This document shows, piece by piece, positions 18,345 to 20,199 of a stretch of DNA of 33,543 nucleotides (position 1 is its first letter; the number at the start of each line of letters is the position of its first letter). The notes below the pieces were generated by a model that did not search any database, was not told where the DNA came from, and saw nothing but the letters and a program-made list of their open reading frames with translations. Made by a program: the position numbers and the translations under genes. Source of the DNA: a bacterium (GTDB taxonomy: Bacteria > Patescibacteriota > Minisyncoccia > JAUYLV01); assembly GCA_030649025.1 (NCBI GenBank), contig JAUSGO010000014.1, positions 1-33,543 on the forward strand, given 5' to 3'.

Positions 18345-18373
18345 TTGACATCAAAAAAATCCGATGATAGGAT
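18345..18373 (+). promoter_or_regulatory. Promoter of the rpsF-ssb-rpsR operon
   Basis: TTGACA (18345-18350), 17-nt spacer, TAGGAT (18368-18373). The predicted start near 18380 lies just before the first base of the long leader hairpin at 18384. Confidence 0.75.
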
Positions 18374-18383
18374 GTTCTGGACT

Positions 18384-18549
18384 AGAACCCATCTTAAAAA
18401 TACTTTTTAGGCGAAATTATGGATTTTTAAGCGAGAGCCGTGCCGCAGAAGCGAGGCGTATTACAGAGTAATACGGTGAGTCTTCGAGAAACGGCTCGTA
18501 GCCAAAAATCCATAATTGCAGACCAAGAAGGATTTTTAAGATGGGTTCT
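18384..18549 (+). ncRNA. Long-hairpin 5' leader of rpsF (candidate ribosomal-protein leader)
   Basis: From outside in: AGAACCCATCTTAAAAAT (18384-18401) pairs perfectly over 18 bp with 18532-18549. AATTATGGATTTTT (18415-18428) pairs over 14 bp with 18504-18517. GAGCCGT (18435-18441) pairs with ACGGCTC (18491-18497). GAAG (18448-18451) pairs with CTTC (18482-18485). The tip is CGTATTAC/GTAATACG (18457-18464, 18468-18475). The hairpin begins at the predicted transcription start and closes seven bases before the rpsF ATG. An S6:S18 autoregulatory leader is the obvious hypothesis; a MITE insertion is the alternative. The frame is open through it but is unlikely to be translated. Confidence 0.6.
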
Positions 18550-18556
18550 GGATGAT

Positions 18557-19042
18557 ATGGCAAAATCAACAGAAAAACTTTATGAATTTTCGTATCTGGC
18601 CTCGCCCGATCTTGATGATGCGGGCCTTGAAGCTTTGAAGAACGAAATAGATACGATGGCCGTTAAGCTTGGCGGGTCGGTCCGCGAACACCTCCAAACA
18701 GAGCGGCGGCGCCTTGCCTACCCTGTTAAAAAAGCCCAAAGCGCCTACCTCGTTTCGGAACAACTTGTGTTCACTGCTTCCGCAAAAGAAGCCTTTGCCA
18801 AAGAATTAGGAATCCGCAAAGATATTCTGCGGCATATATTCGTAGTCCTAACAGAAAAATTCCTGAAACGCCTGCGCGAACGTCGCGTCGTAGAGTTGCA
18901 GACGCCAAAACATGAGATTGCAAAGGAAAAATCGGCGATCCTTAAGCGCCCGACGCATGTCGTGCCGCCCCGAGAAGAAAAAACGGCAGACATCGCGGAA
19001 ATCGAGAGGAAACTGGATGAGATACTCGGGAGGGAATTTTAA
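18557..19042 (+). CDS. rpsF: 30S ribosomal protein S6
   Basis: 161 residues from the ATG at 18557; an upstream in-frame ATG at 18440 lies inside the leader hairpin and is rejected. The S6 fold is seen in KLYEFSYLASPDLDDAGLEALKNEID, the GGSVREHLQTERRRLAYPVKKAQSAYLVSEQLVF central strands and LGIRKDILRHIFVVLTEK. A basic and then acidic C-terminal extension (about 105-161) is longer than in E. coli, where variable tails are normal. S6 pairs with S18 in the 30S platform. Gene order rpsF-ssb-rpsR is the classical one. No clear Shine-Dalgarno; the stem of the leader ends seven bases before the ATG. Confidence 0.95.
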   Translation: MAKSTEKLYEFSYLASPDLDDAGLEALKNEIDTMAVKLGGSVREHLQTERRRLAYPVKKAQSAYLVSEQLVFTASAKEAFAKELGIRKDILRHIFVVLTEKFLKRLRERRVVELQTPKHEIAKEKSAILKRPTHVVPPREEKTADIAEIERKLDEILGREF

Positions 19043-19044
19043 CG

Positions 19045-19118
19045 AATATCCAATATCCAATTTCTAATCTCCAATAGGCGAAGCCTTGATTGGGCATTAG
19101 ATATTAGGTATTAGGTAT
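19045..19118. repeat. ATATCTAAT-type inverted repeat upstream of ssb
   Basis: The left part is built from ATATCCAAT/CTAAT units and the right part from their complement (ATTAGATATTAGG). The centre is CCAATAGGC-gaa-GCCTTGATTGG. It fills almost the whole gap between rpsF and ssb and has a counterpart after ssb. Confidence 0.75.
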
Positions 19119-19130
19119 TTGAAGATTCTT

Positions 19131-19619: not shown

Positions 19620-19690
19620 TATCTAATTCCAAATACCTAATATCTAATATCAGAATTTTGATTGGATATTAGAGATTGGATATTAGAGAT
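19620..19690. repeat. ATATCTAAT-type inverted repeat between ssb and rpsR
   Basis: The left part carries TAATATCTAAT and AATACCTAAT units, the right part GGATATTAGAGATT twice in tandem. The halves are complementary and would fold into a hairpin that ends just before the rpsR start. Confidence 0.75.
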
Positions 19691-19693
19691 TCT

Positions 19694-19894
19694 GTGAGAG
19701 AGTGTTTCTTCTGTAAATCGAATATTAAAGAAGCGGACTGGAAAGAAACGGAATTGCTGAAACGCTATACCAGCGCTTCGGCTAAAATCGTTCCGAAAAA
19801 CCGACGGGGCATTTGCACCAAACATCAACGCAAGGTTGCCCGAGCCATCAGACGCGCCCGCGTCATGGCGCTTTTGCCGTACGTAACCAAATAA
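19694..19894 (+). CDS. rpsR: 30S ribosomal protein S18
   Basis: 66 residues from a GTG at 19694. An in-frame TTG at 19676 lies in the repeat, and starting there would add an untypical N-terminus, whereas MRECFFCKSNIKEADWKE matches the usual S18 opening. CFFC near the start and GICTKHQRK later give a Cys4-like or Cys3His zinc-site pattern, the zinc-retaining form of S18. The core LLKRYTSASAKIVPKNRRG and ARAIRRARVMALLPYV are diagnostic. It binds S6 in the 30S platform. Last gene of the rpsF operon. Confidence 0.95.
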   Translation: MRECFFCKSNIKEADWKETELLKRYTSASAKIVPKNRRGICTKHQRKVARAIRRARVMALLPYVTK

Positions 19895-20102
19895 AGGGTA
19901 TTAAACCCCAGGGCAAGCCCTGGACCCTCTGACCCCGCCTTGGCGGGGTCAGAAATTCCGCAGCAAGCTGCGGGGGCAGAATGCAAATGTCTTTGCATTC
20001 TGCGGGCGATTACCTTGTTTCCCATGTATGAGAATCGCCCAGGAATTAAACCCTTTGTTTTCAGCGCTCGCTCGGAAGTGCAAAAGTACTCTTTTGCACT
20101 TC
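19893..20102 (+). repeat. Array of six hairpins between rpsR and recA
   Basis: In order: CCAGGGC/GCCCTGG (19908-19923), TGACCCCGCC/GGCGGGGTCA (19930-19951), CCGCAGC/GCTGCGG (19958-19973), GCAGAATGCAAA/TTTGCATTCTGC (19976-20003), GGGCGAT/ATCGCCC (20004-20040), and GAAGTGCAAAAG/CTTTTGCACTTC (20075-20102). An outer pair AAAGGGT (19893-19899) / ACCCTTT (20050-20056) encloses the first five, so a branched fold is possible. No gene was seen in this 305-bp gap. Confidence 0.75.
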
Positions 20103-20134
20103 GCTCGACTCGCTAGAAAATAATCACTTCTTAG

Positions 20135-20168
20135 AAAAAACACCCATGGAACGTCCATCGGTGTTTTT
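20135..20168. terminator. Bidirectional terminator between rpsR and recA
   Basis: AAAAACACC (20136-20144) pairs with GGTGTTTTT (20160-20168), with an inner ATGGA/TCCAT stem. The minus strand reads GGTGTTTTTTCTAAG after the stem, which suits recA; the plus strand ends GGTGTTTTTATTTA, which suits rpsR. Confidence 0.85.
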
Positions 20169-20199
20169 ATTTATAGAGAGAACGAAGGGTTTCCGAAAA

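Follow-up and report, generated by a model that had tools for sequence, protein, structure and literature searches.

A hairpin filling the rpsF leader of a Patescibacterium is probably a MITE-like palindrome with IS5-family termini

The long hairpin that precedes rpsF in this genome is very probably a non-autonomous, MITE-like palindrome with IS5-family (IS427-like) termini and a TA target, inserted between the rpsF promoter and start codon. The window, the whole stretch of 33,543 nt that was analysed, carries the element on its forward strand at 18385-18548, an assignment drawn from its fold, recurrence, termini, flanks and a covariance model.

The hairpin measures 166 nt (18384-18549) and occupies the space from a promoter-like pair to the rpsF ATG. 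That pair, TTGACA (18345-18350) and TAGGAT (18368-18373) on the forward strand with 17 nt between them, matches the consensus at 10 of 12 positions, compared with 0.4 such pairs expected per shuffle, and judged from this promoter alone the start of transcription would lie near 18380. The closing stem of 18 bp, AGAACCCATCTTAAAAAT (18384-18401) against ATTTTTAAGATGGGTTCT (18532-18549), is free of mismatches, and the ATG at 18557 follows seven bases 3' of it. We folded 18380-18559 as RNA and obtained a predicted structure of -83 kcal/mol that includes inner stems of 14 bp, 7 bp and 8 bp; 200 shuffles gave -36.4 +/- 3.3 kcal/mol (z = -13.95) and none equalled it. No Shine-Dalgarno sequence was found upstream of rpsF except GGA at 18550-18552, whose first two bases (18550-18551) are mostly base-paired in the predicted structure. 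The first-pass annotation had described the promoter-like pair, the perfect stem with its coordinates, the inner stems and the missing Shine-Dalgarno sequence, and all four were reproduced here.

The gene itself (18557-19042, forward strand; PF01250, E 1.9e-12) belongs to the operon rpsF-ssb-rpsR, each member of which was confirmed by Pfam. Its frame is open upstream into part of the hairpin, from a GTG at 18440 (window 18440-19042), so automatic annotation could pick the wrong start and report a 200-aa product. Other repeats were seen nearby. An AT-rich inverted repeat with 27-nt arms, 78% complementary, spans the ssb-rpsR gap (window 19625-19691), and the rpsF-ssb gap holds a comparable repeat-like stretch near 19045-19120. 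A hairpin cluster 3' of rpsR (window 19841-20170) has perfect 12-nt arms at 19928/19942, 19976/19992 and 20075/20091 and includes the most stable 180-nt tile of the window.

The termini follow the consensus Y-TA/GAACCYATCTYAAAAAT.../TA-R, in which the slashes mark the element boundaries. In the window copy, the left terminal inverted repeat GAACCCATCTTAAAAAT (18385-18401, forward strand) is perfectly complementary to the right one (18532-18548, reverse strand). The flanks of this copy are TA on the left (18383-18384) and TG on the right (18549-18550), the latter presumably a mutated TA. In our survey of 49 distinct elements, the flanking dinucleotides were identical in 33, with TA on both sides in 30 and identical pairs other than TA in three (p 0.011). 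When one genome per species was scanned for the palindromic terminal pattern, 34 loci were recovered, spread over Patescibacteria, Desulfobacterota/'Deltaproteobacteria', Bacteroidota, Ignavibacteriales, Hydrogenimonas and a betaproteobacterium. Twenty follow-up genomes held up to 85 terminal-repeat matches each, and the reversed control gave 0. The 85 matches were seen in the 3.1-Mb genome of a member of the Desulfobacterales (G400, via L082), where many arms deviate from the consensus alike on both sides.

A Leptospira weilii plasmid carries a complete IS5-family insertion sequence (L129) with both of these ends and TA on each side, reading ggtTA/GAACCCATCTCAAAAA ... TTTTTGAGATGGGTTC/TAatc around the transposase. 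In a Desulfobacterales genome rich in palindromes, a left end lies 5' of an IS5-type ORF (L128). The left repeat of the window copy equals the L129 repeat and the L128 left end, bar C/T at one position. On two viral contigs, GAACCYATCTYAAAAAT-type termini immediately flank an IS5-family transposase gene, resolved by Pfam as DUF4096 and DDE_Tnp_1 split over two frames; elements of the IS427 group are described with 2-bp duplications, two overlapping ORFs and a frameshift (PMC3281130). The genome that holds the window, searched with PF13340 for an autonomous element, yielded no DUF4096-type transposase, so mobilisation there would be past or in trans; in its class, DUF4096 occurs in 8 of 384 genomes, accompanied by related or different ends. 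Several candidate parents were set aside: the ends of patescibacterial IS5 elements are related but not the same (G209 was closest), and candidate pairs of long terminal repeats from Hydrogenimonas and Deltaproteobacteria enclosed no transposase. A plasmid search by DNA gave no match, and viral contigs carrying the GGACTGTTGCCGAAT end yielded no bounded element. Terminal repeats in common with a complete IS5-family insertion sequence and the prevalence of identical flanks argue that a MITE-like element was captured to form the 5' UTR. The first-pass annotation had named a MITE captured as a leader as one option, and the terminal repeats, TA duplications, dispersed copies and autonomous IS5-family element bear it out.

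A DNA search of the same genome revealed a second copy, which is 85% identical and is flanked by a glycosyltransferase gene and holB. The terminal pattern AGARCCYATCTYAA has exactly six exact matches in this genome, forming three pairs, the third of which encloses an element of 219 bp upstream of the gene for a GNAT acetyltransferase. A fourth copy, with the ends AGGACTGTTGCCGAATA, lies between the genes for nicotinate phosphoribosyltransferase and NAD-synthetase (nadE). The interior-only model, run over nearly the whole genome (0.95 Mb), found these four loci (rpsF, holB, GNAT and the NAD-synthetase site) and one additional match at chance level. About 20 further sites in other Patescibacteria adjoin khpA, rplX, rodA, csp, rsmE and other genes. 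The element is thus small, non-coding and dispersed at unrelated sites, both at the four loci here and across many genomes. In the single genome of the same family that we compared (G001), the element lies between argS and another ORF, and the region upstream of rpsF combines a TTGACA...TATACT pair with a short leader and lacks the element. At two sites (L014:1956-1982 and L015:1971-1997), the coding sequence of the upstream gene, for a glycosyltransferase and a DegT-like protein, runs into the left terminal repeat and stops there, the frame being the same in both (RAYLKNTF* and RTHLNNNG*), so the element provides the stop codon.

These copies bear directly on a second proposal of the first-pass annotation, that the hairpin might be a new type of ribosomal-protein leader, autoregulated through binding of S6:S18. 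Placement in the rpsF 5' UTR and a CCG at 18443-18445, partly unpaired in the model, are consistent with such a leader, as is a second genome (G071) with a copy upstream of rpsF. However, the element recurs at holB, nadE, khpA, rplX, rodA and other genes, and the same-family rpsF lacks it; the CCG is also present in copies at unrelated genes and missing from other copies. Recurrence at unrelated genes indicates that the hairpin is no dedicated rpsF switch, and the first-pass annotation had itself named recurrence away from rpsF, or absence from close relatives, as grounds for rejecting the leader. The element resembles the S6:S18 rpsF leader motif in lying in the rpsF 5' UTR, but such a leader would be specific to rpsF and conserved upstream of it, and the element is neither. 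Rfam also gave the proposal no support: in the window no family reached the gathering threshold, with only chance-level matches outside the hairpin at E<=5, and the window together with 12 loci gave nothing useful at gathering or relaxed thresholds, a result reported irrespective of whether Rfam 15 includes an S6:S18 leader model. We consider autoregulation through S6:S18 very improbable.

The copy in G071 (Sungiibacteriota) lies between rpsF and a gene that we named ychF from its sequence, with no search behind the name. This copy directly adjoins the ychF stop codon, its far end is 105 nt short of the rpsF ATG, and the promoter-like pair TTGCAG-17-TATCCT occupies part of that interval. Because this separate pair is downstream of it, the copy is probably outside that rpsF mRNA, which tells against the S6:S18 reading in turn. 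By our estimate, the chance of a second copy upstream of rpsF is roughly 3% over the ~24 other copies; the coincidence speaks against the MITE reading, but weakly.

MITE interiors are usually viewed as decayed remnants of one insertion sequence. The interior of the present element is structured and conserved. Among seven close copies, 28 of 56 pairs were changed on both sides, and 91.8% of cells were paired, compared with at most 49.6% when the partner was slid. A covariance model built from ten copies scores 156 bits on 18384-18549, the window copy itself being part of the model, and detects the interior under other ends, namely TA/GAGCATGTCCAAAAA (L067) and TA/GACCTACTGCGTAAA (L147). One interior is found with four unrelated outer stems, GAACCYATCTYAAAAAT, GAGCATGTCCAAAAA (L067), GACCTACTGCGTAAA (L147) and GGACTGTTGCCGAAT (L181). 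When 12 copies were compared over the interior only, 28 of 36 pairs were changed on both sides, and 86% were paired versus at most 49% slid. The invariant columns are mainly loops, made up of CGAR (5') and YGYAG (3') and present once or twice in most copies. In the window copy, the conserved core spans 18402-18529 on the forward strand (interior model R2, 109.6 bits, E 9.5e-27, again with this copy in the model) and has two such internal loops: loop A has CGAA (18412-18415) as its 5' part and TGCAG (18517-18521) as its 3' part, and loop B has CGAG (18432-18435) and CGTAG (18497-18501). Good scores with the interior model were confined to Patescibacteria; in other phyla, we found the ends alone or a weak match. 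These patterns suggest, as far as sequence comparison reaches, a structured RNA core borne by MITEs with different ends, and the keeping of one interior under four end sets in a streamlined lineage suggests that the hairpin itself is retained. Two further arrangements were noted. A palindrome at L064:2516-2690 (G218) has the ends of the nadE copy, GGACTGTTGCCGAATR, around an unrelated interior, and at L147 two elements (1494-1656 and 1735-1895) with a common interior and different terminal repeats sit 78 bp apart between convergent genes.

We considered two accounts of this core, each of them compatible with a MITE origin. The core may be a functional structured RNA, a cis-acting leader or a processed small RNA spreading between different terminal repeats, which at rpsF would regulate translation or mRNA stability and so add a function to the element. 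The sharing of one interior among unrelated outer stems, its covariation with the loops fixed, and the specificity of the interior model in its own genome are in keeping with this account. Moreover, in all 25 copies compared, the strand bearing the CGAR/YGYAG loops gives a better predicted fold than its complement, an asymmetry that owes partly to shared ancestry. A strict single-position count gave 13 G-U against 4 A-C (p 0.049), but a looser wobble count gave 29 against 23 and no clear strand bias. Of the nine copies whose end is no more than 30 nt from a following start codon, eight have the sense orientation (p 0.039), which we assigned by hand after seeing the data: those at rpsF, khpA and rodA (7 nt each), rsmE (2 nt), a glycosyltransferase gene (3 nt), the GNAT gene (13 nt), an ORF in G001 (20 nt) and csp (28 nt). 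The single antisense copy (L079) precedes a 117-aa ORF without a Pfam match. Over all co-directional sites, however, about 11 of 15 are sense (p 0.12), and although the subfamily at first seemed to be invariably sense-oriented, further copies weakened this view. The lack of an Rfam relative also weighs against an RNA role. The strand and orientation evidence is suggestive, not decisive, and we regard a functional RNA as possible while leaning against it.

In the other account, the palindrome acts purely at the DNA level, its arms held complementary by hairpin-templated repair or transposition without any RNA role. The arms are nearly all Watson-Crick, the excess of G-U is unclear in the looser count, and elements also lie between convergent genes, as a DNA palindrome might. 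However, this account would predict that asymmetric purine loops erode or become homogenised, yet they persist under different ends. We give the DNA-level account a little less than an even chance. Tentatively, and with the probability on the low side, the copies may represent an undescribed RNA family of Patescibacteria, in which CGAR/YGYAG loops sit in a long covarying hairpin that travels as cargo of MITEs with several unrelated ends and serves as a transposable 5'-UTR module on genes such as rpsF, khpA, rodA and nadE.

Returning to the MITE-like element at rpsF, insertion between the promoter and the ATG would make it nearly the whole 5' UTR of the rpsF-ssb-rpsR mRNA. The element would then be transcribed with rpsF and fold as predicted. 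By analogy with Correia elements, for which RNase III cleavage is reported in gonococcal mRNAs when they lie between a promoter and its gene (PMC2649163; reviewed in PMC10969869), RNase III could trim the hairpin and leave an mRNA with a very short leader; the enzyme is encoded in this genome. Such trimming would lift the block expected when a stem of this kind ends only seven bases ahead of the ATG. It is more likely that the element is tolerated, or has been co-opted, as a leader than that it senses S6:S18.

The core common to elements with different ends is what merits further attention. If it is active as RNA, it would constitute a mobile leader module able to rewire the expression of essential genes in bacteria that lend themselves poorly to genetics. 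The case also advises caution, as a strongly covarying rpsF leader need not be a ribosomal-protein switch. Like MITEs of the IS5 family (IS427-like), the element is short, non-coding, dispersed and intergenic, has terminal repeats in common with an insertion sequence and shows a 2-bp TA duplication; unlike them, it has a conserved structured interior common to different terminal repeats, and its own genome holds no matching transposase of the tested family. Correia elements of Neisseria (CREE/NEMIS) are likewise about 150 bp long, target TA, have inverted repeats and occur in 5' UTRs, where they are transcribed with the gene and RNase III cleavage has been reported (PMC2649163). By that published description, Correia elements are set apart by other terminal repeats and another core, and RNase III processing, reported for them, is for the present element a presumption.
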